64,000 nucleotides of DNA from a virus, in IMG/VR virus record IMGVR_UViG_3300015371_000002, positions 60,251 through 124,250 of that record; one strand, given 5' to 3'. The notes below the pieces were generated by a model. It did no database searches. It was not told the DNA's origin and saw only the letters and a program-made list of their open reading frames with translations. Shown piece by piece: positions 2,271 to 64,000 of this stretch. Every line of letters begins with the position of its first letter. Position 1 is the first letter of the stretch. The position numbers were made by a program, and so were the translations under genes.

Positions 2271-2921
2271 TCACATCTTCCATTCTTGTAGCGCAACCTC
2301 CACCGAGGGCACGAACCGAAACTCTTTCACGTCGGAAAACCGCGTAGCGTTGGCGACATCGATGCCCATGTTGGACAGCGTCCGGGCGGCGATGGCGAAC
2401 GAGCGGCGCCAACGGCGAAAGTTGGCTTCTCCGGGATTGTTCGCCCCAGACCATTCGTTGCGGCCATACCAGTGCGGGCCTGAGCGGGTATGCACGTCGA
2501 GACCGACGAACGCGATCTGTCGCGCACCGAACTGCACCGCCAAATTTAATGCCTGGAACCCGCTATTACCGCCTGATCCGACAAACCCCGGACGCTCCAA
2601 CAGGATGTCGTCCTTGTGCATGTCGATCTTGATCAGATGAATGTCGGGATACTGCTCGTGCAGCAGTGGGTCATACGCGACCTTGAGGCCAGAGAACTTC
2701 GGCATGCCAATATTGGCGTGCCACCATGGTCGATCGCAGCCATAAATTACGTCCGGCTTGCAGAGCCGCCACGACTCCTTGATCGCTATAACCCTTACGC
2801 GCTGTTTCTGTGCCAGGATGCTGAGATCAACATTCTTGGCGGACGGGCCTGACGCTACGATGACAGCGACGCAGCCGCGCCAATCGGGAAACCACGCAGG
2901 CTTATCGATGCCGTCGAACAT
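2271..2921 (-). CDS. DUF115/MptE-like sugar or pterin transfer-fold protein
   Basis: 216 residues. N-terminal IVASGPSAKNVDL is a glycine-rich nucleotide-binding loop, and the central GSGGNSGFQALNLAVQFGA followed by IAFVGLD (residues 116-142) matches the conserved core of MptE-like DUF115 proteins, which in phages and bacteria commonly accompany glycosyltransferases and flagellin or surface glycosylation genes. The ATG overlaps the stop of the collagen-like gene as TAATG, a translational coupling signal. Exact reaction unknown. Confidence 0.65.
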   Translation of the reverse strand: MFDGIDKPAWFPDWRGCVAVIVASGPSAKNVDLSILAQKQRVRVIAIKESWRLCKPDVIYGCDRPWWHANIGMPKFSGLKVAYDPLLHEQYPDIHLIKIDMHKDDILLERPGFVGSGGNSGFQALNLAVQFGARQIAFVGLDVHTRSGPHWYGRNEWSGANNPGEANFRRWRRSFAIAARTLSNMGIDVANATRFSDVKEFRFVPSVEVALQEWKM

Positions 2922-5578
2922 TAGGTCCGATCGCGACCTGGCACACCTGGCGGCCCTTGTTTACCCTCTGGACCCTTGAGCGATGCCAGCCACTCTTTCT
3001 CGGTGCCACTAAACCCCGCGGCACGCGCAATCTCGTAGGCCGACCGTCCATTCCTCGCGGACTTCACCGCCAAGCGCCATCCGCTGTCAGGACCTACGCC
3101 GGGCGTTGCCGTTGTGGTTTTCTGGGCCAACCAGACAGCGCCATCGCGTGTCACCGCATCCCCGAGAACGTATTCCCCATCGCGCCAAATGCCACGATCG
3201 AGCGGCAACGGGAAATAGAACGACTGCGTGTGCTTCTGGCCGTCGCGCTCCATGATCAGCGTCATCGTGCGCTCGCCGTCATATTCCCAGCGCATATCGT
3301 CGAACCCGAGGCCCGGTGCCCCGTCTTTACCGTCCTTACCGTCCCTGCCGTCGGCGGCGCGCACCAGCCCGATGGACAGCGAGCGATTATCCGTCATGTG
3401 TGCGATAAGATTGCCCTCGGCATCTAGCGAGAATGAATCAACACCGGGCGGCGTTGTTCCGTCATCTCCGCGGACGCGTCCGGCGGTTTCAGTGGTGCCG
3501 TCTCGGCGCACGAATACCAGATCGCCATCGGCATTAACCAGGAAGCCGCGAGGGACAGTTGCCAAAGCTGCATCGACTGAACGCTTAATCTCATCAGCAG
3601 TCGCCATTGCTCGTCCGATGGCATCGCCGATCTCTCCCTTCATTTGTTCGCGGAGCGCGTTGATGCGATCGTCGATTTCTGCGGCAATCTTAGTTACATC
3701 TGCATCGGAACCGTCACGGCCAGCAGGGCCCGGCTCGCCCTTCTCGCCAGGCGGGGCGGGCGGAATAGCGGAGACGGCTTCGGTAACCAGCGAGCGGACG
3801 AATTCCAGATCGACATCCGATCCGTCACGCCCGTCCCTACCGTCAGCTGGCTTAGGAATGGCGTTGACCGCTTCCTCGACCAAGGCGCGAATGACAATTG
3901 GATCGGCGTCCTTTCCGTCGATACCGTCACGCGCTGGCGGCAATGCCGCGACAGCGTCAGTGACGAGCAGGCGGACAAATTCCGGATCCGCGTTCTGTCC
4001 GGGATCGCCCTTTTCACCGACCGGCCCAGGAAGGCCATCGACGCCATCGCGTGGCGGTGGAACGGCGGCGAATGCTTCGGTAACCAACGACCGGACGAAC
4101 TCCGGATCGGTATCGCGGCCGGGTGGCCCAGGCTCTCCCTGCGGCCCCGGTGCGCCATCCATCCCGTCCTTGCCGTCGATCGCTAGTATGCGACCGAGGT
4201 TGATACTGCGCCCGTCGGTCAGGAATACGCGGGCGTGCCCGTCGGTATCTGTCTGCAGGTTGAGAATGCCGATACCGTCCATGCCATCGGCGCCCGGCAG
4301 GCCGTCGGCCCCCTTCTCACCTTGAATTCCTTGGAGGCCTACGCCCGGCTGCCCCGGAACGCCCTGTGGCCCTTCCGGTCCCGCTGGCCCCATCTCTCCC
4401 TGTGGGCCGGGCGGACCAACCACAGCCTCGCCCTGCGGTCCGGCCGGACCCATTTCGCCAGGATCGCCCTTCTCGCCGCGCTCTCCGGTTAGTCCCTTTT
4501 CGCCCTGTGGCCCCGGCAACCCGTCCACGCCATCGCGGCCCGTAAGACCCACGTCGCCCGGGTCACCTTTCTCGCCCTGAATACCTTTCTCGCCTGGAAT
4601 TCCAGGAGCACCGTCAATGCCATCGCGTGGCGGCGACAATGCCGCAATCGCCTCGGTCAGCATTGAACGGATCAGTTCTGGCTCAACGTCCTTGCCATCA
4701 ATGCCATCGCGACCCGCAGGCCCTGGCTCACCGTCCTTCGGTAACGGAATAGCCGAGACAGCCTCGACCACGAGAGAGCGAACAAATTCCGGATCGGCGT
4801 CCTTGCCATCGACCCCAGGCGGGCCCTCAAGACCATCGCGTGGTTTTGGCAATGCCGCGACAACATCGGTGATCAGTGACCGCACCAGCTCCGGCTCGAA
4901 ATCCCTGCCGTCTTTGCCATCGCGACCCGGCGGTCCCGGCTCTCCAACCATCGGCGGCGGAAGGGCTGCCACTGCCTCTTCCACCAACGAGCGAACCAGG
5001 AGTGGATCAGCGTCCTTCCCCGGATCTCCTGGCGGGCCATGGGCGCCGTCCACGCCATCACGCGGGACTGGGATGGCCGAAATCGCTTCGACCACGAGAG
5101 AGCGAACGAATGCGGGATCGGCATCGATGCCATCGGCGCCCGGATCGCCCTTTGGTCCCGGCTCGCCTCGCGGCCCCTTAATGTTCGATAGCGTCTCCTC
5201 GGTCTTGTCCGAATAGGCGAAATACAGTCGCCCCTCTTCGGTCACATAGGTATCGACAATCCCTCGTCCCGGCGGACCCGGTTCGCCGTCGACGCCATCC
5301 CTGGCAGGGGGCGCATCTCTACCATCCGCACCACGAACCTTGCCGACGCGAAGCAGCTCGCCGTCGGAGCGAGTAAAGCAAAGTTCGCCTTCGACATCTT
5401 GCATGGCACCGACGAAACCGACACCATCACGCCCTGGCGGCCCTGTCTCTGGCACAAGCATAGACCGCGCCTCGAGCGCGGCGATGCGCTGCTGCATAGG
5501 GGCCAGTTGCTCGCCGAGATATTGCCGCACGACAGGCGCAATAGCCTGCATGAGCCCAGCTATGGTCGCATGATCCAC
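2921..5578 (-). CDS. Collagen-like tail fibre protein
   Basis: About 885 residues, dominated by Gly-X-Y triplets (GPPGRDG, GEKGDPG) that predict collagen triple helices. Unusually, short collagen stretches alternate with about nine copies of a 17-residue helical module like [17 protein letters not shown], followed by a longer continuous collagen block in the middle. The C-terminus holds a [11 protein letters not shown]...WLAQ carbohydrate-binding-like segment and the phage fibre motif [20 protein letters not shown]. The start chosen is GTG at 5578 (VDHATIAGL) with AAGGGG upstream; GTG at 5650, overlapping the portal gene by 26 bases, is an alternative. Role: trimeric host-contact fibre. It lies directly downstream of the portal. 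Confidence 0.85.
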
Positions 5579-5624
5579 TGGTGACGACCCCTTCGTGTTC
5601 TGCGGCCGGCTGATCCGCTTTCGG

Positions 5625-7067
5625 TCAATCTGCTGCCGACAGAACGGCACCGCCTCCCAGCGCTTTGGTCAGATGCCACGCAGCCATGGCGATGTCGGCC
5701 TCATCGAGGTCGCGCTGCTGTGCGGCTGGGCTTCCCGGCGCGCCCGGTCCGGATGGCGGCGTAAGTGCGGGCTGAAGGGGGGCAGGCGTTGCCGGGGCTG
5801 ATTCTCGCTGCGTCAGAACGTCAATGGGCCAATACTGCTGCTGAAGGAATGGAACATCGCCACCTTTGACCGGACGCATGTCGAACCGTGCGCGCGCTTC
5901 GTTCGGCGAGAAGATCGCCCGCTGCACGCCTTCGCCGATGGTCTTGACCTTGGTGGCGGTGTCCATGCGCAGTAGGCCATCGTCGATGTCGAACTCGGTG
6001 CCGTAAATATGTCCGGTGACCTCGGTTAGACCGAGGCCCTCGTCCAACAGCAATTCGATGTTCTCAAAGCGTGCCTGCAAGCACTGGCTATAATACGACA
6101 GGTTCAGCGCTTCCACGTTGTTATACGTCGGTGCTGCTTGCGTCACGAGAAACGCGGGCACGTGGAATGCGGAGCAGATGGTCTCGGCGGTCCACCTCAG
6201 TTGCTCGATGAGTTGGGCATCGACCGGATTGATACTCATCCGCTCGAACTTCATCCCATCGCCGAGGATCGCCACCCGCCCGACGTTCTCGCCCGCGTAG
6301 TTCGCCTGCCATTTGGCTTTGACGCGATCGGCGGTTTCCTGCGAGATCGGCCCCGGCGCGATCAGCATGCCAGATGGCACCGCCTGATTGCGCGACGTCT
6401 CGATCTGCTGCTTCTGCGCCTCAAGCCCCTGGAGCGCCGACAGGCCACACGCAGTGAGCGGCGAAATACCGATCAGCGGATGGAACACCGCCGACATGCG
6501 GTCGTGGATGATTTCCGACGCGGGAACAACCTGGCTGTCTTCTTCGACGCCGGTCAAGCTGTCCGCGTAGAGTTGGTAATAGACCGCACCATCGGGTGCG
6601 ACCAGCACCTTGGTGCGTGCTGGGTCAAGCACATACATGGCAATGACCACGCCACGACCGTCGCGCTGCTTCAGTATATACGTATTCCCCCACGTAAGGA
6701 GGCTATAGATCCAGCACTCCAGGAATTGAATTCGCGTTTGGTAGCGATTTGGCTTGCGCAGCACCGGGCTGAACGCGGGCGCGGAAGTCTCTTCCCAGAT
6801 GCCGGTGGTCGGATCCTGCTCGACCAGTTTGATACGAATTTTGGATATGTCCTGGGCAATCAGCGAAAGGCACGAATAGACGGCGTGATGGCGCAGGGAG
6901 GTTTCCTGCGTCATGCCCATGTTGCGCTGCCAGGCGCCCATGAACGGTTCCTGGATAGTCGGCCAGAACCACTGGGAGAACGTCGACATCGGCGGCACCA
7001 TCAGGCCGGTGGGCGGTGATGCCTTGGCGATGCCGTTGCGCGTGATGTCGAACCCGAGGATACGCAT
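5625..7067 (-). CDS. Phage portal protein, HK97 family
   Basis: 480 residues. Typical portal features: YSCLSLIAQDISKI near the N-terminus, the conserved LTWGNTYILKQRD and LNLSYYSQCLQARFENIE segments, and an alanine/proline-rich C-terminus. It forms the dodecameric DNA entry channel at one capsid vertex and docks terminase. The ATG at 7067 (MRILGFDITRN) is chosen because it follows the upstream stop by seven bases; in-frame sequence back to 7169 lies inside that gene. It comes after the capsid gene, the reverse of the usual portal-protease-capsid order. Confidence 0.92.
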   Translation of the reverse strand: MRILGFDITRNGIAKASPPTGLMVPPMSTFSQWFWPTIQEPFMGAWQRNMGMTQETSLRHHAVYSCLSLIAQDISKIRIKLVEQDPTTGIWEETSAPAFSPVLRKPNRYQTRIQFLECWIYSLLTWGNTYILKQRDGRGVVIAMYVLDPARTKVLVAPDGAVYYQLYADSLTGVEEDSQVVPASEIIHDRMSAVFHPLIGISPLTACGLSALQGLEAQKQQIETSRNQAVPSGMLIAPGPISQETADRVKAKWQANYAGENVGRVAILGDGMKFERMSINPVDAQLIEQLRWTAETICSAFHVPAFLVTQAAPTYNNVEALNLSYYSQCLQARFENIELLLDEGLGLTEVTGHIYGTEFDIDDGLLRMDTATKVKTIGEGVQRAIFSPNEARARFDMRPVKGGDVPFLQQQYWPIDVLTQRESAPATPAPLQPALTPPSGPGAPGSPAAQQRDLDEADIAMAAWHLTKALGGGAVLSAAD

Positions 7068-19339: not shown

Positions 19340-19401
19340 CATGACGGCGTGCTGCGCTCACGTGGCAGGCTACCCCTCTCCAATCGAAGGAGATTAGTAA
19401 G

Positions 19402-19647
19402 ATGGACAAGAAAAGAACAAAGACGGCATATGGCGAATATCGTCCAGATTTGGGTCGCTTCATACTGCGCCCAGTGAAGCGCATTCCATTTATGGCGCCA
19501 ATTCCTTGCGCGGTGTTCCCTTCGATACAAGAAGCCGAGCAGGCTGCCGACGCCCATGGTTATCGAGTTATCTGGGACAAGTCACCCACTCCAATCGAAG
19601 GGGGCCAATTCCGGGCTCCCTGTCCAATCGAAGGGGATCGAAAATGA
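19402..19647 (+). CDS. Hypothetical protein ending in translated repeat (81 aa)
   Basis: Begins MDKKRTKTAYGEYRPDLGRF; residues 40-58 (VFPSIQEAEQAADAHGYRVI) look like a small alpha-beta domain. Its last 20 residues are encoded by two consecutive start-associated repeats (SPTPIEGG...CPIEGDRK). Start defined by the repeat at 19380. Stop overlaps the next ATG (ATGA). Function unknown. Confidence 0.6.
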   Translation: MDKKRTKTAYGEYRPDLGRFILRPVKRIPFMAPIPCAVFPSIQEAEQAADAHGYRVIWDKSPTPIEGGQFRAPCPIEGDRK

Positions 19648-19853
19648 ATCTCAGTGAGAGAACCGCGTTGATCAATCGCATTGCTAGCCTGCCCGGACCC
19701 GTCACGCTTGACGGAAAGCCGGCGCTGATTTGCGGACTGACCAGCGACTTCCTAACCGTGGTCACTATGACCTTACCGCGAGTGTCTTGTCAGTTCTCGT
19801 GGGAAGCGGTGGCGCGATTGCTCGACAAGGGCGGAGCTTTCCGTTCCTTCTGA
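19644..19853 (+). CDS. Hypothetical protein (69 aa)
   Basis: Begins MNLSERTALINRIASLPG, with a predicted beta-rich middle (VTLDGKPALICGL). Overlaps the previous gene by four bases and starts 20 bases after the repeat at 19624. No family recognised. Confidence 0.6.
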   Translation: MNLSERTALINRIASLPGPVTLDGKPALICGLTSDFLTVVTMTLPRVSCQFSWEAVARLLDKGGAFRSF

Positions 19854-19910
19854 CCAGTCTCGATCCTGTCCTCGCTTCGGTAGCATAACTCCAATCGAAG
19901 GAGCTTTGAA

Positions 19911-20069
19911 ATGAAGACCTATACACTTAGCGTCCTTGTCTCAGTCGACCTAGCGTTTTCCAACGACGAAGCGGCGAAAGAATGGGCGGAAGAGCACACT
20001 GTTTTCGATATGCTCGACAAAGGCGCTGGCGTTGGTGAAGTCGTCATTACTCCAATCGAAGGGGATTAA
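19911..20069 (+). CDS. Small protein (52 aa) with TPIEGD tail
   Basis: Reads MKTYTLSVLVSVDLAF, then an acidic helix DEAAKEWAEEH, ending VVITPIEGD. The last residues are encoded by the next start-associated repeat. Starts after the repeat at 19891. The form resembles other small phage proteins of beta-alpha type, function unknown. Confidence 0.6.
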   Translation: MKTYTLSVLVSVDLAFSNDEAAKEWAEEHTVFDMLDKGAGVGEVVITPIEGD

Positions 20070-20070
20070 A

Positions 20071-20271
20071 ATGCTCACTCTCAGAGAGGCCGACATACTC
20101 CGCGCCTACTGGCGCCAAACCTACGCCGTAGTGCGCGTCCGTCGGGATGGCACAGTTGAGGCGAAGCAGTGCCCATCATCGCCGTGGGCCATCCTGGAAA
20201 CGCCGGAACAAGCGCGCCTTAGCGCCGCCGAGCTCTTGGCCATTCCGGGCAATCGAAGGGGATCGAAATGA
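20071..20271 (+). CDS. Hypothetical protein (66 aa)
   Basis: Begins MLTLREADILRAYWRQTYAV. Starts one base after the previous stop, 19 bases after the repeat at 20052. The tail NRRGSK is the next repeat read in another frame. Stop overlaps the next start (ATGA). Confidence 0.6.
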   Translation: MLTLREADILRAYWRQTYAVVRVRRDGTVEAKQCPSSPWAILETPEQARLSAAELLAIPGNRRGSK

Positions 20272-20432
20272 CAATGCATGATCTAGGGGACGTGTTTCAA
20301 CACGCGTTTCACCACGAACGATCCCCGCGAGCGAGCGCGGCGGAGGTCGCGACATTCTGCGGCATGGTGGCCGCTGCGCTGCTGGTGACGTGGTTCACCA
20401 CGGGCCACGCGTTGCTTATGGCGATGCGGTAG
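20268..20432 (+). CDS. Small membrane protein (54 aa)
   Basis: Begins MTMHDLGDVFQHAFHHE, followed by a hydrophobic helix (VATFCGMVAAALLVTWF) and a short tail. Overlaps the upstream gene by four bases and uses a diverged repeat (GCAATCGAAGGGG) as ribosome site. Unknown function. Confidence 0.55.
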   Translation: MTMHDLGDVFQHAFHHERSPRASAAEVATFCGMVAAALLVTWFTTGHALLMAMR

Positions 20433-20458
20433 ACCCATTCCAATCGAAGGGGGCCAAA

Positions 20459-20701
20459 ATGGCCATGAAACGTCAGCGCCTATGGACCGTATGGGGACAA
20501 GATCCCCTGCGCCCAGGCAATCGCATGTTCAAGACCGAAGCTGAAGCATTGGCCTATGCGGCCGTGCTGGCGCCGATATCTAGCGGATGGGCGATGGTTC
20601 AGGATCATTGGACGCGCGAGATCAGGACCGTGCGGGCGATATACCCCACTCCAATCGAAGGGGAGCGAAAATACCCTGTCCAATCGAAGAATACCGATTG
20701 A
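20459..20701 (+). CDS. Hypothetical protein (80 aa) with translated-repeat tail
   Basis: Begins MAMKRQRLWTVWGQDPLRPG. Middle portion FKTEAEALAYAAVLAP resembles a short helical domain. Residues from TPIEGERK onward are encoded by two orphan repeats (20651, 20680) that lead into promoter copy 4, so its 3' end may have been extended by repeat insertion. Confidence 0.55.
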   Translation: MAMKRQRLWTVWGQDPLRPGNRMFKTEAEALAYAAVLAPISSGWAMVQDHWTREIRTVRAIYPTPIEGERKYPVQSKNTD

Positions 20702-20726
20702 CAGATACCCTGCGGTATACTATATT
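20698..20726 (+). promoter_or_regulatory. Promoter-operator copy 4 (TTGACA-17-TATATT)
   Basis: Best match to the sigma70 consensus of the four. Spacer holds ATACC-CTGC-GGTAT. The leader to the ATG at 20764 contains GCAAATCCAGAGG. Confidence 0.7.
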
Positions 20727-20763
20727 GCAGGCAACAACAATTCAGCAAATCCAGAGGCAACCA

Positions 20764-21330
20764 ATGACCGAATATAGCAATCCACGCTTACGCGCCGTGA
20801 TCGACAATTGGCCCATCGGCAGCAAGCGTTGCACCGCAACGTTTATGATCGAGCGCAACGGCAAGGGAGAGCGCGGAGTTCGCACAACGGTTGGTGCACC
20901 CAAGAAGCTGACCTATGCCCGCAAGGCGCGCATTGTCGACGGTGACGATGGGCGAACGTATATCGCCGAGCTGTCGGCATACGGTTTCGTCTCAATTATG
21001 CGCGGCGACATGAAGTTTCAGCATGAAGCGGTGTTCGATACCGACCCGCGGTTTCGGGCGATCATGTCGCTATTCTCGGAGGGCCGACAGATGACCTGCT
21101 TTCCCGTTCGTGAGCCATCACTCGCAGCGTTAACCGACGCGCCAGTGTCTTTCCGCTACGGATCGAACAAGCGGCGCATCCTAGTCGATGCGTTGACGGC
21201 TCGGGCCATCCTGGCCGTTGTCGCTGCTATCAGCGATGAGAACCGCGAGAAGCTAGAGCGTATGATTAAGTCACCATCCGGACTTGCGAAAGTTGCCGAC
21301 TTTGCCATGAGCAAGTGTTCGATAGCTTGA
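20764..21330 (+). CDS. Hypothetical protein (188 aa) under promoter copy 4
   Basis: Begins MTEYSNPRLRAVIDNWPIGS. Beta-rich first half with a basic patch (KKLTYARKARIVDGDDGRTY), helical C-terminus (ENREKLERMIKSPSG). AGAGG before the ATG. Largest gene in this part of the array and the only one with its own promoter copy in the repeat zone. Family unknown. Confidence 0.65.
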   Translation: MTEYSNPRLRAVIDNWPIGSKRCTATFMIERNGKGERGVRTTVGAPKKLTYARKARIVDGDDGRTYIAELSAYGFVSIMRGDMKFQHEAVFDTDPRFRAIMSLFSEGRQMTCFPVREPSLAALTDAPVSFRYGSNKRRILVDALTARAILAVVAAISDENREKLERMIKSPSGLAKVADFAMSKCSIA

Positions 21331-21362
21331 CTCTCGCATGTCCAATCGAAGGGGATCATTCA

Positions 21363-21608
21363 ATGGAACACGTCACGCGATATGTCGGCACCTATGTGAA
21401 CAGCAACGGCGAGCGAACCTTAATGTCGGCAGCACAAGGACGCCATACCTACGCTTCGGCTGAAGAAGCGCAGGCCTGGATCGACGCTGTTACCACGAAC
21501 AACAGCGCCGATACGCTGAGGCAGGTCTGGGGCGATAACCCGCAATTCGAGGTTCGCCCCTGCCCCTGCTACCCGGGGCACTTTGACCCGCAAACTGTAT
21601 GGTTCTGA
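21363..21608 (+). CDS. Hypothetical protein (81 aa)
   Basis: Begins MEHVTRYVGTYVNSNGERT; the centre ASAEEAQAWIDAVT resembles the small alpha-beta proteins in this run. Starts 21 bases after the repeat at 21342. Ends CYPGHFDPQTVWF. No known family. Confidence 0.6.
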   Translation: MEHVTRYVGTYVNSNGERTLMSAAQGRHTYASAEEAQAWIDAVTTNNSADTLRQVWGDNPQFEVRPCPCYPGHFDPQTVWF

Positions 21609-21673
21609 CGGCGCGGGCGCCCCATTCATAGCGGGGCGCCTCTCCAATCGAAGGAGCGAAATAGGAGGAAATC

Positions 21674-22136
21674 ATAGGCTTAGATATGTATTTGGAAAAG
21701 CGCCCATTACGTGAAGAACTGGGACAACATGGGACCGGAAGAGCGGCATCAGGTAACGGTGCTAAAAGGTGGCAAGCCGACGACCATTAAGCCGGAACGC
21801 GTCAGTTACGTGATCGAGCAGGTTGCATACTGGCGTAAGGCAAACGCTATTCATCAGTGGTTCGTCGAACACGTGCAGAATGGCGAAGATGACTGCAAGC
21901 CATATGTATGCGACTCTGACAAGCTGAAGGAACTATTGAGCGCAGTGGATGCGGTGCTGAAATGCCGCAAGAAGGCCAAGGAACTATTACCCACACAGGA
22001 AGGGTTTTTCTTCGGCAGCATCGAGTATGACGAATACTATCGGCAATACCTGAAGGACACCAAGCGGATGCTTGAGGAGATCCTTGCCGAACCCGATGCA
22101 GACATCAGTGAGTATGTTTATCAGTCTAGTTGGTAA
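21674..22136 (+). pseudogene. GLDMYL-type phage protein with lost start and frameshift
   Basis: Reading from ATA at 21674 gives GLDMYLEKR, then a one-base shift near CCC at 21703-21705 restores YVKNWDNMGPEERH and the rest of the family (YWRKANAIHQWFVEHVQ, DDCKPYV, LLPTQEGFFFG, DEYYRQYLKDTKRM, ending YQSSW). The family normally begins MGLDMYL..YVKNWD, so here the start codon is ATA and one base is extra. AGGAGG stands five bases before the ATA. A shortened product could start at GTG 21711 (141 aa). Either a decaying gene or a sequencing error. Confidence 0.7.
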
Positions 22137-22162
22137 CGCCGCTCCAATCGAAGGAGGCCAAA

Positions 22163-22351
22163 ATGATCGTCCGTAGTCCAGACCCGCGTTTGGTTCGTAA
22201 GGCGCACAAGGCGCTGATGTGGTCGCGCGATTATCAGAGCGGCGAGGCCACGCGACCAGATCCGCTGGCATTCACGCCGGAGATGGAGCGCGCCACGCAG
22301 CAGTGGATTGCGCACATGCTGCGTCTTGGCATTGGGAAGGAAACGCGATGA
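22163..22351 (+). CDS. Hypothetical protein (62 aa)
   Basis: Begins MIVRSPDPRLVRKAHKALMW and contains a WIAHMLRLGIGKE helix. Starts 19 bases after the repeat at 22144 (AAGGAGGCCAAAATG). Overlaps the next gene by four bases. Unknown family. Confidence 0.6.
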   Translation: MIVRSPDPRLVRKAHKALMWSRDYQSGEATRPDPLAFTPEMERATQQWIAHMLRLGIGKETR

Positions 22352-22788
22352 AAACCGATGACGATGATGCGGCCATGCCAAAGAGCATGTTCGCCTTGCC
22401 CACGCACTTGCGGGACCTGCTGGACCGTTACGCGAAGGAGCGCGGGATCAAGAAGCCCGAAGCTGTGCGCCATATCCTGGCACTGTTCTTCGCCAGCCAA
22501 GAGGACGGACACCTGTCCAGCCAGGACGCGTTGGCGCGCATGGCGGAGGTGGCCGGGCAACAGGCTGGCAACCGCAACGCCCGCGAGCATGGCCGTGAGG
22601 CATGGTCAGGCGAGGATTTCCGCATAGCCGGCGAGGCAGCGGGGCGGATGGCGGCACGGTTGGCAGAAATCTGGGCCCCACTCCAATCGAAGGGGGCCGA
22701 ACCAGATGCTCTTACCTCGACCGATGTTGCCGTGGAGATTAGTGACGGTTTGGCTACCCCGAGGGTGGCCCGGCGGAAACGCGCGTGA
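22348..22788 (+). CDS. Ribbon-helix-helix-like regulator with extended tail
   Basis: 146 residues. Residues 10-50 (MPKSMFALPTHLRDLLDRYA...KKPEAVRHILALFFAS) fit an RHH or similar short DNA-binding domain. From about residue 115 a start-associated repeat (22683) is read in frame as PLQSKGAE, so the last 30 residues may be a later extension. GGAAGG before the ATG; coupled by ATGA to the previous gene. Confidence 0.6.
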   Translation: MKTDDDDAAMPKSMFALPTHLRDLLDRYAKERGIKKPEAVRHILALFFASQEDGHLSSQDALARMAEVAGQQAGNRNAREHGREAWSGEDFRIAGEAAGRMAARLAEIWAPLQSKGAEPDALTSTDVAVEISDGLATPRVARRKRA

Positions 22789-22828
22789 TCGCAACCCCAC
22801 TCCAATCGAAGGGGGCATGGAGGAAAGC

Positions 22829-23404
22829 ATGACTACCGAGCGGCGGGCGCAGCAGCACGAGCAAGTCCTAAGGCATTGCCTGCGAGCGCTAGCTGGCGAT
22901 TTGCTGCGTGCCATTGCGGGCGGTAGCGCCAGTAAGATTGTCGAACGCATTGGCGAGGCCAATGAGGCGATAGAGAATTGGTTTGATGGACGGCAGTGCA
23001 TGCCATTCGGCCAACGCACGGTCGAAGCTATGCTTTGGTTAGAGGAAGATCGCGACGGCTATGATGATCACAGAAAAGTCGAGCACGACATGATCATTGC
23101 CGCACTGCGAACGGTATCGGCTCGCATGCTACCTATGCCGCATATTCGTAATGATTGGTTTAAGTATGAAGACATCAACGCTCTAGCTGAGCTGCGCAAG
23201 AAGCGGCGAGAGCAGATGGAAAGAAAGTGGGCAAAATGGCGGGCGCGCTCGCCAGAGCACAAACAACCGGCAAATGATGTCTTACCGAAAGCCAACAAGG
23301 CGAAAGTCAACAAGACTGAACGACGGATCGCAATCCGAAAGCAAGCGCGGCAGGCTCAGAGAAGTCGTATGGGCATCGCCGCCACTCCAATCGAAGGAGA
23401 CTAA
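22829..23404 (+). CDS. Hypothetical basic helical protein (191 aa)
   Basis: Begins MTTERRAQQHEQVLRH. Helical N-terminal half, then a strongly basic tail (KKRREQMERKWAKWRAR, RRIAIRKQARQAQRSR) and a repeat-derived TPIEGD end. The ATG at 22829 has GGAGG five bases upstream; ATG 22817 is too close to the repeat's own GGGGG. Nucleic-acid binding is plausible from charge only. Confidence 0.6.
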   Translation: MTTERRAQQHEQVLRHCLRALAGDLLRAIAGGSASKIVERIGEANEAIENWFDGRQCMPFGQRTVEAMLWLEEDRDGYDDHRKVEHDMIIAALRTVSARMLPMPHIRNDWFKYEDINALAELRKKRREQMERKWAKWRARSPEHKQPANDVLPKANKAKVNKTERRIAIRKQARQAQRSRMGIAATPIEGD

Positions 23405-23406
23405 AT

Positions 23407-23511
23407 TTGGCATGTCCTGACATGGGCTGGCCGGCTGTCATTGGCGGGCTGGGGGCTCTCTGGGCAGTCGTGGCCCTGATGCTGGGGCTGGCCTGGTTGT
23501 TGCACGAATGA
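23407..23511 (+). CDS. Tiny single-helix membrane protein (34 aa)
   Basis: TTG start two bases after the previous stop, 20 bases from the repeat at 23387. Sequence LACPDMGWPAVIGGLGALW continues as one hydrophobic helix ending WLLHE. The repeat positions the start, which is the main evidence that it is translated. Confidence 0.5.
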   Translation: MACPDMGWPAVIGGLGALWAVVALMLGLAWLLHE

Positions 23512-23536
23512 CCCACTCCAATCGAAGGTGACTGAA

Positions 23537-24085
23537 ATGCGCCTCGTGCACTACGCGTCGGAGCCGTTTGGCGAGTTGGAGGAATTCGGTGAACCACCCG
23601 AGAAAGACTGGCGCACCTATTTCTACAAACCGCATGGTTTGTGGGTATCCGACGAAGATGCCGAGGGTGGCTGGCGTGAGTGGTGCATCGACAACCGGTT
23701 CAATCTGGAGTGCCTCACCCACGTGCATGATGTGGTATTGGCGCCCGATGCCAAGGTGTTGGTCATCAGCAACCCTCGTCGGCTCGACCAGTTCACCGCC
23801 GATTTTCGCCTACCGTCCTATTACGACAAGAAGCTTGCGGACGATATGCGGAGCTTCGTTGCAAGTTACGGCCTCGGATGGCGCGAGGTGGCGAAGATCT
23901 ACGACGGCCTGATTATTACGCCATACCTCTGGGAGCGGCGGCTCGATCCGACGTGCATGTGGTATTACGGATGGGATTGCGCCGGCGGTTGCTTATGGCA
24001 CACGCGCGCTATCCAGTCGGTCACGCTGCGTGAGGTCGTGCCAATCCCTGAGACCACTCCAATCGAAGGGGAGTCAAATGGTTGA
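23537..24085 (+). CDS. Conserved phage protein (KPHGLWVSD/WYYGWDCA type)
   Basis: 182 residues. Motifs FYKPHGLWVSDED, GWREWCIDNRF, THVHDVVLAPDAKVL, YDGLIITPYLWERRLD and WYYGWDCAGGCLWHTRAI recur, in this order, in an uncharacterised family common to many tailed phages. Starts after the repeat at 23518; the repeat at 24059 encodes its TTPIEGE tail. Function unknown. Confidence 0.75.
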   Translation: MRLVHYASEPFGELEEFGEPPEKDWRTYFYKPHGLWVSDEDAEGGWREWCIDNRFNLECLTHVHDVVLAPDAKVLVISNPRRLDQFTADFRLPSYYDKKLADDMRSFVASYGLGWREVAKIYDGLIITPYLWERRLDPTCMWYYGWDCAGGCLWHTRAIQSVTLREVVPIPETTPIEGESNG

Positions 24086-24281
24086 GCCTGACAGCATCGA
24101 GGTGGACGGCGTCTACCGCACCATGGAGGCGTTCTGGACGGTGACCGAGATCGTCGATGGTAAGGTGGACCTGCGCCGTGATGACGGAAAGCTGGCGCGG
24201 TTTGGCTTGGCGCACTTCGCACAGATCGTGGAACGTAGGGTTACTCCAATCGAAGGGGGCCAAAACAATGGACCACGGTGA
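24078..24281 (+). CDS. Hypothetical protein (67 aa)
   Basis: Begins MVEPDSIEVDGVYRTMEAFW, a beta-rich SH3-like pattern (VTEIVDGKVDLRRDDGKLARF). Overlaps the previous gene by eight bases. Its end (VTPIEGGQNNGPR) is repeat-encoded. Confidence 0.6.
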   Translation: MVEPDSIEVDGVYRTMEAFWTVTEIVDGKVDLRRDDGKLARFGLAHFAQIVERRVTPIEGGQNNGPR

Positions 24282-24534
24282 TGGCAATATGCAGCGCTGG
24301 AAGCGTGGCGCGACGAGAGAAGAATTACGCATGTCTCTCGTGGGTTTAATGGAGAGCATTAACCATGATGCCAAGGAGGGCATCGAAATCTGCGTTCGGC
24401 TAAGCACCAAGGAAGGCTGCGAAGGTCCGGGCACCCTAGGCACCGACTATTTCATCAAGATTATGCAGGCGGTTACGTGGATTGATGATCTCGTGGGGGA
24501 TTTGGAGCTTGCCGAAGAAAGGCTGATCCCATGA
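24268..24534 (+). CDS. Hypothetical helical protein (88 aa)
   Basis: Begins MDHGDGNMQRWKRGATREEL; acidic helical C-terminus (WIDDLVGDLELAEERL). Starts 22 bases after the repeat at 24246 and overlaps its neighbours on both sides. Unknown family. Confidence 0.6.
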   Translation: MDHGDGNMQRWKRGATREELRMSLVGLMESINHDAKEGIEICVRLSTKEGCEGPGTLGTDYFIKIMQAVTWIDDLVGDLELAEERLIP

Positions 24535-24698
24535 GCCCGGCGGTTCTGGTGCTGCTCTTCACGTTCGCCAGCGGCGCGGGTGCCGTAGCGACGGTCGACA
24601 TGCCGTCTATGCAGATATGCAAGGCTGCTGCGAACGAAGCCATTGTCGCGCATGAACGCGATACGTCAGCGCGGTGCATATCACGCGTCGCAAAATAA
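24531..24698 (+). CDS. Small protein with N-terminal signal-like helix (55 aa)
   Basis: Begins MSPAVLVLLFTFASGAGAVAT, a typical signal peptide with AGA-VA cleavage-like end, then a mature part with two cysteines (MQICKAAANEA...RCISRVAK) that could form a disulfide in the periplasm. Coupled by ATGA to the previous gene. Confidence 0.55.
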   Translation: MSPAVLVLLFTFASGAGAVATVDMPSMQICKAAANEAIVAHERDTSARCISRVAK

Positions 24699-24743
24699 TC
24701 TACTTGCGTTCCTCGAGGGGTGTCCAATCGAAGGGGGCCAAAA

Positions 24744-25055
24744 ATGGCGGGACTAACCAGCTATGCACGGGACAAGCTGCTGGCAGAATTGCAATCGGGC
24801 ACGATGACATCCGGCGCTGTCTCGATCGACGTCGGTCATTTGCCCGCAGGTTACGTCAGGTTCGATAGCTGGCCCAAGGCGCCCGCGCCCGTCCATGGCT
24901 TGCTGACCGATCCGGAGACCGGCCAGTCGTGGCGGATCAGCTTGAATCAGGTTACCAAGCAGTGGGAAATTGTGGACGATCCCAGTCCAAGGATCAGCAA
25001 GGCAGCCCTGGAGGCGAAGATCGCCGATGCAGCATTGCGAGCGGCCAAGGAATGA
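24744..25055 (+). CDS. Hypothetical protein (103 aa)
   Basis: Begins MAGLTSYARDKLLAELQSG; includes DVGHLPAGYVRFDSWPKAP and a C-terminal helix KAALEAKIADAALRAAKE. Starts 20 bases after the last repeat copy (24724). Stop overlaps the next start (ATGA). Confidence 0.6.
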   Translation: MAGLTSYARDKLLAELQSGTMTSGAVSIDVGHLPAGYVRFDSWPKAPAPVHGLLTDPETGQSWRISLNQVTKQWEIVDDPSPRISKAALEAKIADAALRAAKE

Positions 25056-42664: not shown

Positions 42665-42717
42665 ACTACAGCACACACCATAACATGTGTCAACATATAA
42701 TTAGCATTATTTTGTCA
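42665..42717. promoter_or_regulatory. AT-rich divergent promoter region
   Basis: Minus strand: -35 TTGACA (42693-42688), 17 bases, -10 TGTAGT (42670-42665), driving the membrane-protein operon. Plus strand: TATAAT at about 42696-42701, 15 bases before the relaxase GTG/ATG region. Also contains ATAAT-TAGC-ATTAT inverted repeat. Could also hold oriT, since origins of transfer commonly lie beside the relaxase gene; no nick motif is identified. Confidence 0.5.
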
Positions 42718-45512
42718 TGCTAGGACACGGGATGGCACGCGATTTTGCTGGGTCTGGTGGGGGAAGGACAAACGCAAGACGCATCGATCGCTTGCATGGC
42801 AAGAATGTTTCGTGGCATTGCGCGGATGTGGCTATCCCTTATGCAGGCGTGCGCTTTGTTGGCAGGTCGGGGGGCGGGAACGCGGTGCGCTCGGCCGCCT
42901 ACAACATGCGGGAGCGGATTATCGGCGAAAAAGTCGGAGAGAATTTCAACTTCAGCGACCGAAGGCAGGAAGCGCTGCACCACGACATTTTATTGCCCGT
43001 CGGGGCGAACCCCTCGTTCAACAACCCAGAGCGTTTGTGGCGGGCGGTCGAAGCGGCCGAGAAACGCAAGGACGCGCGGGTTGCCAAGGAGGTGCTGATC
43101 GCCCTGCCGACCAACCCGGGGGTGACGAAGAAAGACTGGATCGCGCTAACCGAGAGCTTTGCCCGCGAACAATTCGTGTCCCGTGGCGTCGCGGCGCAGA
43201 TCAACATCCACCACGACAAGGCGCACAACCCGCACGCCCACATCCTGATCACCACCCGCCGGATCGAAGACGACCGGCTGGCGAGCCACAAAGCGCGTGA
43301 CCTGGACCCGATCGTGCGGCGTGGGGTTAAGGGGCGGGCGTTCGTCACCGAGGCGCAGGCGTTCGGCAAGGCTTGGGCGGACCATCAGGATAAATACTTC
43401 CGCCAGCGGGGGCTGCCGATCCGCGTCGACCCGATCGCCATCGTGCCGGGCAGGCACATCGGCCCGGTCCGCCACCGTAAGCCGGGCGACAAGAACGCCA
43501 AGCATAATGCTGCACTGCAGAAAGCCAACGCAGCATTAATCCAAGATCCTGGAAAAATCATAGAGGCACTGACCCGGCAAAAAGCCACCTTCGACCCCCG
43601 CGAGGTGTCCCGGTTACTGCACAAGGCGGGCATGGGCCGCCCCGAGGCGGAGGCAATGAAGGCGCGGGTGCTCGGTCACGCCTCGGTGCTGCCACTCTAC
43701 GATCCACGAACCGGCGAACCGAACGAGCGTTACACGACGCATGCCATCCGTGCTCAAGAGCGCCACGCGATGGCCGTCGCTCGGATGGTGGCCGATAGTC
43801 ATCATCCGGCGATTGCGCTCGAGGCTCCAGCCCGCCTGCGCGAGGACCAACGCAAGGCATTTGACAGCACATTATCTGCAGGCGGGCTGAAGCTCATCGA
43901 GGGCAGAAGTGGGACGGGCAAGTCGGTTGTCTTGGCCTCGGTGAAGGATGCCCATGAGGCCGCCGGCTACCGAGTAGTAGGTATGGCACCGACCAACACC
44001 GTGGCGTCCGACATGCGGGTGCGCGAGGGGTTTGGTGAAGCCCGCACGGCGCATTCGTGGCTGTTCAGGCTGAAGAACGACCGCGACCAGTGGGACCGGA
44101 ACACGACCGTCATCCTGGACGAGGGTGCGATGATCTCGGCGCCGATCATGGGCGAGGTGCTAGAGCAGGTGCATCAGTCCGGGGCCAAGCTGATCATCGC
44201 GGGCGACGACCGCCAACTCCCCTCGATTGAGCGCGGCGGGCTGTTCAGCGAGATGGTCCGCGTCCACGGATCGGCCGAAATCACCGGCGTGGTTCGCCAG
44301 AACGAGGAGTGGCAGCGGCAGGCCTCGATGGACCTCGCCGCCGGACGGTTCCACAGCGCGGTAGAGCGGCTTAATGCCGCCGGGGCGATATCCTGGTCGG
44401 AGGATCGTCCGCACGCCCTGGCGGCGCTTGTGGGCGCCTGGGCGAGGGACACTTTGGCTGAGCCGGGGAAGACGCGGTTCGCCTTCGCCTGGACCAATGA
44501 GGACGTGGACCGGGTAAACGCCGAACTGCGCGCGGTGCGGGTCGGGCGGGGCGAGTTGGGCGACATCGACCATGTGTTCCAGACCCGGCACGGCAAGGCG
44601 ACGTTCGCGGTCGGCGACCGGGTGCAGTTTACCGCGACGGAAAAGCCGCTGGGCATCCAGAACGGTGAGACCGCCACGATCCTCTCTATCCGTTCTGGCA
44701 TGGTCCGATCGGGCCTGATCGAGGCCAAAACCGACCGCGGCGATCTCGTGCGCTGGAACCCCCGAGAGTTCGACGGGTTCCGCCACGGCTATGCCGGGAC
44801 GATTTATCGCGGCCAAGGGCAAACCCTGGACGCCGCCTACGTCCTGCACTCGGTGCATTGGCGTGCGCCAGCGGCTTATGTCGCCCTTACTCGACAACGC
44901 GAGACGATCAAGCTGTTCGTGGCCGAGAGCATCGCGCCCAACGAGCGCGAACTGGCCGAGCAAATGGGAAGGAAGGAAGAGCGCGGGGCGTCACTGCGCT
45001 GGGAAGACAATCGGGAGGACGCACTGAAACGCATGGCCGAGATCAGACTACAGGAAAGGGATGCGGAACGCGCCGCACGGCGCGAACGGACCGCGCAGCC
45101 GGCGGGCAGCAATTTGGAATTCCACGCGCGGCAAGTGGTGCAGAGCTGGGCGGATTACCTAGACGTGCTCGACCTGCAGATCGCCAAGGAGATGGCGACC
45201 ATTCCCAAGGGGGCGCCGCCAGAAGCGTGGGATCATGCGCATGACCGCGCGGCCAACAAGCTGCAATGGGCGCTGGATCGGGCGGAGGAGTGGTATGCTG
45301 AGGTCCGCGCCGACTGGACCCCACAGCAATGGGCCAGGGCGATCGAACGCGGCGTGGCGACCGACCTCGAGGCGATCCAGGCAGTGGTCAGGAACATGGA
45401 TGGCGATGACGTGGCCTACCGCGCGACCCGTGCCGTCATGGACGCGAAGAAGCAGCAGGCGGATCAGGTGGAACAAGTGGTGCAACAACCGGCGCAGCAC
45501 ATGCGGCGCTGA
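42717..45512 (+). CDS. traA: TraA-type relaxase-helicase (MobA/MobL family)
   Basis: 931 residues. Residues 40-260 form the relaxase: candidate nucleophile Tyr 62 (SAAYNM) and the metal-binding HHDKAHNPHAHI (165-176). Residues 375-740 form a UvrD/TraI-like helicase with Walker A EGRSGTGKS (395-403), Walker B VILDEGAM, GDDRQLPS, and a late YVALTRQRE motif; a basic, helical tail follows. Such proteins nick oriT, stay covalently bound and unwind DNA for conjugation. It stands alone: no mating-pair genes are visible, so transfer would need a helper. Confidence 0.9.
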   Translation: MLGHGMARDFAGSGGGRTNARRIDRLHGKNVSWHCADVAIPYAGVRFVGRSGGGNAVRSAAYNMRERIIGEKVGENFNFSDRRQEALHHDILLPVGANPSFNNPERLWRAVEAAEKRKDARVAKEVLIALPTNPGVTKKDWIALTESFAREQFVSRGVAAQINIHHDKAHNPHAHILITTRRIEDDRLASHKARDLDPIVRRGVKGRAFVTEAQAFGKAWADHQDKYFRQRGLPIRVDPIAIVPGRHIGPVRHRKPGDKNAKHNAALQKANAALIQDPGKIIEALTRQKATFDPREVSRLLHKAGMGRPEAEAMKARVLGHASVLPLYDPRTGEPNERYTTHAIRAQERHAMAVARMVADSHHPAIALEAPARLREDQRKAFDSTLSAGGLKLIEGRSGTGKSVVLASVKDAHEAAGYRVVGMAPTNTVASDMRVREGFGEARTAHSWLFRLKNDRDQWDRNTTVILDEGAMISAPIMGEVLEQVHQSGAKLIIAGDDRQLPSIERGGLFSEMVRVHGSAEITGVVRQNEEWQRQASMDLAAGRFHSAVERLNAAGAISWSEDRPHALAALVGAWARDTLAEPGKTRFAFAWTNEDVDRVNAELRAVRVGRGELGDIDHVFQTRHGKATFAVGDRVQFTATEKPLGIQNGETATILSIRSGMVRSGLIEAKTDRGDLVRWNPREFDGFRHGYAGTIYRGQGQTLDAAYVLHSVHWRAPAAYVALTRQRETIKLFVAESIAPNERELAEQMGRKEERGASLRWEDNREDALKRMAEIRLQERDAERAARRERTAQPAGSNLEFHARQVVQSWADYLDVLDLQIAKEMATIPKGAPPEAWDHAHDRAANKLQWALDRAEEWYAEVRADWTPQQWARAIERGVATDLEAIQAVVRNMDGDDVAYRATRAVMDAKKQQADQVEQVVQQPAQHMRR

Positions 45513-52304: not shown

Positions 52305-53095
52305 CACGGGCACCACGACGGCACGGGCTGGCGATACGGCGACGCCGGCCGCGCGGGAGGTTTATCTTGCTCGCTGCGTTGGTCACGATAACGGACGTAA
52401 TTCAGACACCAAGTGCGCCAGGAAGCTCCCCAGTCTGCGCTGTCGGTTCCGTTGGCCTGATGGTAGGCCACGAAGCGCGCTATTTCTGCGAGCGGGACGC
52501 CCCGTTCGGTGGCGAAGGCGCTTGCCTTTCCGTCCGCGGACCAGTCCTCCGGGATCGTCGTTCTGCTGCGTGGCTTCGGAGTAGCCTTTTGGCGCTTCGG
52601 TTTCCCGCGCGCGCGATAAGACTCCAAACTATGAATATTAGATTCTGGTTCTTTCCTTGGTTCATTGGATAGATTCCCTCCCTGATTTGGGAGGGGGGGG
52701 GATCCATTTTTGGTAGCCCCCCCTTCCGTATTTGGTATCCCCACCTCTTCCGTTTTTGGTATCCCCTCCCCTTCCATATTCGGTAGGGGGACCCCTTCCG
52801 CATTTGGTAGGGGGGTATCTCCGATTTTGAGACGATACTCAGCGCTGAGGTGGGGCTTGCTGGCATCATCGCCAGGCCGCAGACACCGCTCGGTGAGACC
52901 TGAAGCGCAGAGAGCCGAGAGGGCCTTGCGGACCGTCTTTGGATTGAGATGCGTTCGGCGGCAGATTGTCTGGATAGAGGGGAAGGCGCGTTCGCCCTCT
53001 TTATTGGCATACCAAGCAAGACAGACTAACACCAGCTTGGCGGCACTCGTGGGGCATTCCTGCTCCCACGCCCAAGACTGTGCGCTGAAGCTCAT
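52304..53095 (-). CDS. Replication initiator with internal iterons
   Basis: 263 residues. N-terminal winged helix of the HTH_36 type (CPTSAAKLVLVCLAWYANKE, FPSIQTICRRTHLNPKTVRK). The middle is a series of 8-residue repeats (PLPNAEGV, PLPNMEGE, GIPKTEEV, GIPNTEGG) encoded by 24-bp DNA repeats. The C-terminal third (ERGVPLAEIARFVAYHQANG...WRTWCLNYV) resembles helicase-loading domains. Layout strongly matches phage initiators such as lambda O, with the origin inside the gene and the helicase next. Confidence 0.8.
   Translation of the reverse strand: MSFSAQSWAWEQECPTSAAKLVLVCLAWYANKEGERAFPSIQTICRRTHLNPKTVRKALSALCASGLTERCLRPGDDASKPHLSAEYRLKIGDTPLPNAEGVPLPNMEGEGIPKTEEVGIPNTEGGATKNGSPPLPNQGGNLSNEPRKEPESNIHSLESYRARGKPKRQKATPKPRSRTTIPEDWSADGKASAFATERGVPLAEIARFVAYHQANGTDSADWGASWRTWCLNYVRYRDQRSEQDKPPARPASPYRQPVPSWCP
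52702..52831. repeat. 24-bp iterons, predicted replication origin
   Basis: TTCC units begin at 52724, 52748, 52772 and 52796, exactly 24 bases apart, with consensus TTCCGTATTTGGTA followed by a C- or G-run; partial units begin at 52702 and 52819. An A+T-rich stretch (52621-52680) flanks them. Iterons in an initiator gene followed by an AT-rich region is the classic lambdoid origin arrangement. Confidence 0.85.
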
Positions 53096-63487: not shown

Positions 63488-64000
63488 ATGAGCGCAGCAG
63501 CAGCAGCAGAGACTCAGCTCGCGACGATCTCCCAGAAGGACGAAGACCTGCTGATCGAGGCCATGCAGAACAGCCTCTACCCTGGGGCCAAGCGAGAAAG
63601 CGTCGCGCTGGTCCTGAGTTACTGTCGGGTCAACAAGCTCGATCCGATGACCAAGCCGGTGCACATCGTGCGGATGAAGGTAAAGACCGGCTATGACCCA
63701 GTAAAGCGCCAGAACATAGAAGAATGGCGCGATGTGCTGATGCCGGGCATCGGCGATTATCGCATCAAGGCGGCCCGTAGCGGTGAATATGGCGGTAAGA
63801 CGGAACCAGAATTTGGCCCCGTTATCAGAGAGAAGCTGGGCGGCACGGAGGTGTCATATCCACAGTGGTGTAGGATCACGGTGCATCGCATCGTGCAGGG
63901 GCAACCGAGGGCCTTCGCCGCCAAGGAATATTGGCTCGAGAACTACGCCAATGACGGCCACTCGGATAAGCCGAACTATATGTGGAAAAAGCGGGCATTC
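63488..64000 (+). CDS. recT: RecT-type single-strand annealing protein, C-terminus cut by edge
   Basis: 171 residues visible. LYPGAKRESVALVLSYCRVN, LDPMTKPVHIVRMK and ADGHSDKPNYMWKKR fit the RecT/Bet annealing fold (core helix plus beta sheet). Promotes annealing of single strands in phage recombination. AACGAA precedes the ATG. The frame runs off the right edge. Confidence 0.88.
   Translation, partial: MSAAAAAETQLATISQKDEDLLIEAMQNSLYPGAKRESVALVLSYCRVNKLDPMTKPVHIVRMKVKTGYDPVKRQNIEEWRDVLMPGIGDYRIKAARSGEYGGKTEPEFGPVIREKLGGTEVSYPQWCRITVHRIVQGQPRAFAAKEYWLENYANDGHSDKPNYMWKKRAF

Follow-up and report, generated by a model that had tools for sequence, protein, structure and literature searches.

The 64,000 bases of DNA analysed here, hereafter the window, form the end of a soil-phage record of 124,250 bases (IMGVR_UViG_3300015371_000002). 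Its gene set includes a terminase, a fused protease/major head protein, a portal, a primase/helicase and ParB-like genes. An island of small genes, known from one metagenome assembly, is situated between the side of the terminase and 25 kb, a few kilobases from the terminase gene; in it, a short repeat with the core CAATCGAAG recurs at gene starts. In this study, we examined this repeat as a start-associated sequence (SAS). The island and the 19 copies are as follows.

19402..25055, plus strand: accessory small-gene island, 18 genes (34-191 aa), most without a family match
19380..19392, plus strand: SAS copy 1, precedes gene 19402
19591..19603, plus strand: SAS copy 2, no start; tandem pair, 33 nucleotides (nt) before copy 3
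19624..19636, plus strand: SAS copy 3, precedes gene 19644
19891..19903, plus strand: SAS copy 4, precedes gene 19911
20052..20064, plus strand: SAS copy 5, precedes gene 20071
20249..20261, plus strand: SAS copy 6 (GCAATCG variant), precedes gene 20268
20440..20452, plus strand: SAS copy 7, precedes gene 20459
20651..20663, plus strand: SAS copy 8, ATA at the expected ATG site
20680..20692, plus strand: SAS copy 9, degenerate 3' end, 29 nt after copy 8; directly 5' of a sigma-70-like promoter (20698)
21342..21354, plus strand: SAS copy 10, precedes gene 21363
21644..21656, plus strand: SAS copy 11, precedes the phrog_7971 gene; homology to the sister phage L182 begins at this SAS
22144..22156, plus strand: SAS copy 12, precedes gene 22163
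22683..22695, plus strand: SAS copy 13, within the 3' end of gene 22348; ATG at 23 nt, opening a reading frame in frame with gene 22829
22802..22814, plus strand: SAS copy 14, 27 nt 5' of gene 22829
23387..23399, plus strand: SAS copy 15, precedes the 34-aa gene 23407, TTG start
23518..23530, plus strand: SAS copy 16, precedes gene 23537 (phrog_8582)
24059..24071, plus strand: SAS copy 17, precedes gene 24078
24246..24258, plus strand: SAS copy 18, precedes gene 24268
24724..24736, plus strand: SAS copy 19, precedes gene 24744

An earlier note on this DNA had reported 19 copies of the repeat, all in the same orientation, and our recount between 19380 and 24736 gave the same result: CAATCGAAG is present 19 times, on the plus strand only, where dinucleotide shuffles of the island predict about 0.04 copies (mean 0.043) and at most five of the commonest 9-mer of any kind. 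Sixteen copies match the longer form CCAATCGAAGGRG exactly, the three variants being GCAATCG... at 20249, ...AAGAAT at 20680 and ...GGTG at 23518. Because so few copies depart from CCAATCGAAGGRG, by one or two mismatches, the set is remarkably uniform. A search of the island at up to 2 mismatches found no others. In the full record, TCCAATCGAAGGRG occurs 16 times exactly, with no reverse and no control matches, and the record outside the island holds a single isolated CAATCGAAG. Elsewhere in the window, matches with 2-3 mismatches are found on both strands at chance level.

The copies are closely tied to start codons. Measured from the first C of CCAATCG to the start codon, 13 of the 19 copies lie at 19-22 nt, before 12 ATG codons and one TTG (copy 23387, at 20), while the outlying spacings are an ATG at 23 nt (copy 22683) and a start at 27 nt (copy 22802). 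Thus, the single copy at 27 reported previously stands, and the 14 copies at 19-22 nt become 13, with one more at 23. The four start-less copies comprise 19591 and 20680, both in close tandem pairs, and 20651 and 21644, in which ATA occupies the site of an ATG that is expected or is present in a relative. At the expected spacing, 13 of the 19 copies have an ATG that opens a frame of at least 30 codons, whereas this holds for 6.4% of island positions (nominal binomial P 6e-12).

The information profile reveals an invariant core, CAATCGAAG, bordered by a nearly invariant TC on its 5' side and G(G/A)G on its 3' side, with a weaker CCCA(C/T) upstream and AAA ahead of the start. Shared conservation was also sought farther 5', and none was found beyond about -8. 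The consensus spans about 20 bp and reads approximately CCCAYTCC-AATCGAA-GGRG, then 4-6 nt and AAATG; it is probably specific to this phage lineage. GAAGGRG is a good Shine-Dalgarno (SD) match, and duplex calculations against the alphaproteobacterial anti-SD, whose sequence was taken from general knowledge, gave -8 to -12 kcal/mol. Conservation nevertheless reaches some 8-10 nt farther 5', beyond the SD pairing region: CCAATCG is invariant or nearly so, and the 5' half of the element takes no part in pairing to the 16S tail. Pope et al. (PMC3203893) likewise reasoned from non-pairing bases when they called the cluster K repeats start-associated and not simply ribosome sites. A promoter or terminator role was rejected, as no promoter was detected at the SAS copies; the sole strong promoter (20698) stands before gene 20764, whose start lacks a SAS. 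Rfam models matched the region only at 23144, below threshold and by chance.

Outside this record, the motif is scarce. A scan of 2.9 million viral contigs returned 99 single matches, attributable to chance except those in the relatives L021, L099 and L065, and the pattern of SAS plus start appeared in these contigs only as one coding coincidence (L112). In 84,980 genomes the same pattern gave 15 matches, about the number estimated for chance; all are GGAG, single per contig, and some lie at ordinary cellular genes. The repeat is accordingly not a general host sequence, the check that the earlier note had proposed. A distant-DNA search of the phage database found no match. Relatives, the other proposed check, do carry the motif, in fewer and partly diverged copies.

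These relatives, found by terminase search and motif scan, are fragments. L065 and L116 are about 88-92% identical to the window where best alignable, and L021/L179/L182 and L099/L181 form a more distant single population. L065 has three SAS at homologous places, two of them with one core change, plus one degenerate copy; L116 has one SAS, CCGATCG; and L182 has one exact copy. Single-protein queries (23537, 24268, 21711 and a 24744 alignment) gave no new island-covering contigs beyond L065, L116 and L182/L181, with L183 holding only a distant 21711 homologue. The right-hand part of the island is ordered as follows.

Window: SAS-[TTG gene]-SAS-[23537]-SAS-[24078]-SAS-[24268]-[24531]-SAS-[24744]
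L065: Y-GGGAGCGGGA-[TTG gene]-SAS-[24078]-SAS-...-[24268]-[24531]-[extra]-SAS-[24744]
L116: Y-GGGAGCGGGA-[24078]-SAS-[24744]

Between the TTG gene and 24078, the window exceeds L065 by one gene (23537) and one SAS. In turn, 24078-SAS-24744 of L116 corresponds to 24078-SAS-24268-24531-SAS-24744 of the window, that is, one SAS against two. In L065, the extra DNA immediately follows the SAS that precedes 24268, and the extra gene immediately precedes the 24744 SAS. The overlapping, SAS-free junction 24268/24531 is unbroken in both L065 and L182. A whole block of SAS and gene is also shared with L182:

21642..22137, plus strand: SAS and gene block of 496 bp, 86% identical to L182 9933-10427, running from the 5' edge of the SAS to the stop codon

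In L182/L179, the orthologues of 24268 and 24744 are located elsewhere on the opposite strand, behind ordinary, differing upstream sequences without SAS. The SAS is therefore tied to the island and not to the genes.

The sister phage L182 carries a second repeat family. De novo counting identified CCGTGTTTACGGGG in six identical copies within 2.25 kb of one strand (L182 9469-11722), five of them 20-35 nt before starts and two in tandem, 21 nt apart. They surround the shared cassette, at a distance from the terminase similar to that of the window island. CCGTGTTTACGGGG is absent from the window record, and its matches in the viral scan are confined to the L182 population. Window copy 20440 (CCCATTCC...GGGGG) has flanks similar to those of this repeat (CCCATTCC...GGGG), and the core differs. 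Since most CCGTGTTTACGGGG copies precede a further SD, the property shared by both families is attachment to gene starts, not being an SD. The family is small and we give it less weight. Our de novo detector, which recovered GGATAGGAG from TM4 as a positive control, found no other convincing start-associated repeats in a sample of the more distant relatives L124-L178, nor in Labrenzia, Agrobacterium and Bradyrhizobium phages.

We consider it likely that the repeat is a lineage-specific SAS, combining an SD 3' half with a conserved 5' half, which would form the front end of gene modules gained or lost singly in a variable operon island. The GGRG half would drive translation initiation of the accessory small genes. 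SAS and gene modules would come and go one at a time, spreading by recombination between short repeated ribosome sites, probably with the aid of a RecT-like annealing protein. Each acquired gene would bring or receive the standard SAS, and the copies would in this way stay uniform. More tentatively, and with reservations, the SAS may be the adhesive end of these cassettes: a gene spliced in at a ribosome site would leave another SAS behind, so that the island would grow by accretion, with the type differing wholesale between sisters (CCAATCGAAGGRG versus CCGTGTTTACGGGG). The following gene is a possible recombination agent:

63551..63997, plus strand: RecT-like single-strand annealing protein, cut by the contig end (RecT E 1e-9, phrog_2449 E 8e-62)

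An integrase and Erf were searched for in the record, and neither was found.

Several observations weigh against the modular reading. Exact identity between SAS copies has a median of 14 bp and a maximum of 22, below the minimal pairing segment of 23-27 bp reported for Red-beta (PMC3945230), so recombination events would be rare. Rad52-like phage recombinases do generate mosaics at short, diverged homologies (PMC3945230). Four of the 19 copies serve no start, the right-hand homology of L116 resumes 26 bp inside gene 24744 instead of at the SAS, and the codon-position signal of gene 24268-24534 is weak (11/8/14 substitutions at positions 1/2/3). The comparison spans only portions of the island, from fragments of three related populations, in which gain and loss look alike. 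Moreover, phage mosaic junctions fall at gene ends anyway, where the SAS sits, which makes the coincidence of breakpoints with SAS weaker than it seems. The earlier suggestion of a recombination hotspot that shuffles small gene cassettes thus holds in part: shuffling agrees with the differences of L065, L116 and L182 at SAS junctions, with one copy facing two, and with the encoded annealing protein, whereas identities shorter than 23-27 bp make an efficient hotspot less likely.

The strongest competing explanation, though an unlikely one, is a regulon, an idea also raised in the earlier note, in which a phage or host factor, protein or RNA, would bind the CCAATCG half in mRNA or DNA and switch all SAS genes together, uniformity reflecting selection for binding. 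Nine bp are identical in 19 of 19 copies and this invariance reaches 5' of any SD pairing. L182 presents a similar layout with another core, CCCCATTCCGTGTTTACGGGG, as expected after a change of specificity, and start-less tandem copies occur in both repeat families. However, there is no obvious phage small RNA, because antisense matches with fewer than 2 mismatches are absent from the window and exact ones from the record. In addition, orthologous SAS vary inside the core among relatives (GCAATCG, CCAATCGTAGG and CCGATCG), and the SAS genes have no common family or function.

We give little credence to an RNA hairpin, CUCC-AAUCGAA-GGRG, that would mask the SD site. Its arms are complementary, with a fold of -2.9 to -3.8 kcal/mol in isolation, and complementary arms likewise occur in the sister repeat (CCGT-GTTT-ACGG) and in cluster K (GGG-N7-CCC). 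Yet covariation is lacking (75.0% of cells paired versus 74.7% in shuffles), pair probability exceeds 0.5 in only five of 19 copies in a 100-nt context, and identity continues 5' of the stem. Slightly less probable still is a plain strong SD consensus, its repetition being ordinary optimisation of ribosome sites. GAAGGRG is indeed a good SD at the correct spacing, but the 9-bp CAATCGAAG is invariant although its 5' part falls outside SD pairing, and the upstream CCCAC is partly conserved. Furthermore, the sequence serves no gene of the record outside this set, four copies lack a start codon, and the full CCAATCGAAGGRG is not found at many starts of any one genome, the genome matches being single per contig. 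Finally, it is scarcely credible that the SAS encodes a C-terminal tag of the upstream proteins: seven of the 10 copies inside an upstream coding sequence (window 19592-24258) encode TPIEG or CPIEG in frame close to the C-terminus, above the one third expected under random frame, but nine copies are intergenic, three lie in other frames, and it is the distance to the downstream start that is constant rather than that to the upstream frame.

As the earlier note had proposed, the repeat is analogous to the SAS of cluster K mycobacteriophages, 5'-GGGATAGGAGCCC, found in 11-19 copies per genome (PMC3203893): it sits at ribosome sites, in one orientation, before non-structural small genes, and has a different sequence. 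Both are asymmetric, almost of one orientation and placed at the ribosome site (14-15 of the 19 copies here, all plus), and both join an SD core to conserved bases unable to pair with 16S rRNA. Their genes start mostly with ATG, some orthologues having the repeat and some not. Cluster K SAS are absent from hosts; here, the repeat is not general in genomes or unrelated phages. Unlike in cluster K, the SD is at the 3' end and not at the centre, and the copies form one 5.4-kb island and are not spread over the right arm. The genes overlap or lie at most 102 bp from a neighbour (most at most 62), whereas cluster K gaps are mostly above 50 bp. There is no ESAS here, whereas about half of the cluster K SAS have one (17-bp inverted repeats, a putative promoter). 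The window TCCAATCGAAGGRG fails to match 5'-GGGATAGGAGCCC at up to 2 deviations and shows no sequence relation to it. The window repeat is not conserved across related phages, which are available as fragments, and L182 uses CCGTGTTTACGGGG instead. Differing in sequence, conservation across relatives and ESAS, the repeat acts like a SAS without being a member of the cluster K SAS. The effect of the latter on translation is unproven too (PMC11373665, PMC12699233); one report offers only the speculation that gp51 could act on SAS genes (PMC11373665), and another calls for experiments on SAS (PMC12699233).

Other systems share single features with the window repeat. The Microbacterium cluster EF SAS, GGGAAAGGACCCC, and the 18-bp EC motif, located 22-30 bp before starts (PMC7302621), also have 10-12 copies at gene starts, EC copies being partly among small genes by the terminase, but their sequences are unrelated and their hosts actinobacterial. 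The 17-bp dyad repeats of cluster O, where genes lie between two repeats when relatives have one and the authors infer inter-repeat recombination (PMC4351075), differ in being palindromic, with a meaningless orientation and no tie to start codons. Cluster A stoperators are short, asymmetric, numerous and oriented with transcription (PMC4351075), but they silence transcription and have no link to start codons, whereas the window repeat keeps a fixed spacing to starts. EGeRS1, a repeat upstream of plasmid establishment genes (PMC8708921), recalls the relaxase of the window record and a repeat before several small genes; it is, however, 400-600 bp long, forms stable inverted repeats and precedes operons, whereas the window repeat has about 20 bp, precedes single genes and has no promoter at its copies.

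Substitutions at codon positions 1/2/3 are enriched at position 3 in genes 21711 (13/3/47), 24744 (10/7/21) and 24531 (4/3/12), and the TTG start of gene 23407 is kept in L065 at the same 34-aa length. Judging from this bias and the kept TTG start, several SAS-downstream genes are truly coding. In the phrog_7971 gene (window 21674-21720), ATA replaces ATG and a one-base insertion shifts the frame, while L182 has the gene intact; its 5' part looks broken in the window, or else reflects a sequencing error. The isolated-phage homologues of the phrog_8582 protein (23537-24085) all belong to actinobacterial phages, with about 37-43% identity in the best matches, and gene 23537 may be a case of long-distance transfer. 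By themselves, these homologues tell nothing about the repeat.

The terminase has its nearest isolated-phage matches in Labrenzia, Agrobacterium and Bradyrhizobium phages, with some cyanobacterial phages equally close (43-46%). A relaxase/helicase of the MobA/TraA type (window 42717-45512), retained in L179, is 49% identical to Mesorhizobium plasmid proteins. From these matches, we infer that the host is probably rhizobial. The presence of a relaxase alongside phage structural genes suggests a phage-plasmid or a mobilisable phage. The window also codes for a long collagen-like protein with many GPP/GXD repeats (2921-5650), flanked by glycosyltransferase-like genes and the portal. Near the primase/helicase gene there is a tandem array of about 24/48-bp units, CCCCCCTTCC...GGTA (52703-52814), possibly an origin or regulatory region.

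Start-associated sequences have been known since 2011 with no demonstrated function, and the cases found in the open-access literature come from actinobacterial phages. The repeat described here is apparently an independent case, in a rhizobial-type phage, and its relatives show copies and genes changing together. If the modular reading is true, ribosome-site modules travelling with genes would explain why such repeats arise and how small-gene islands grow.

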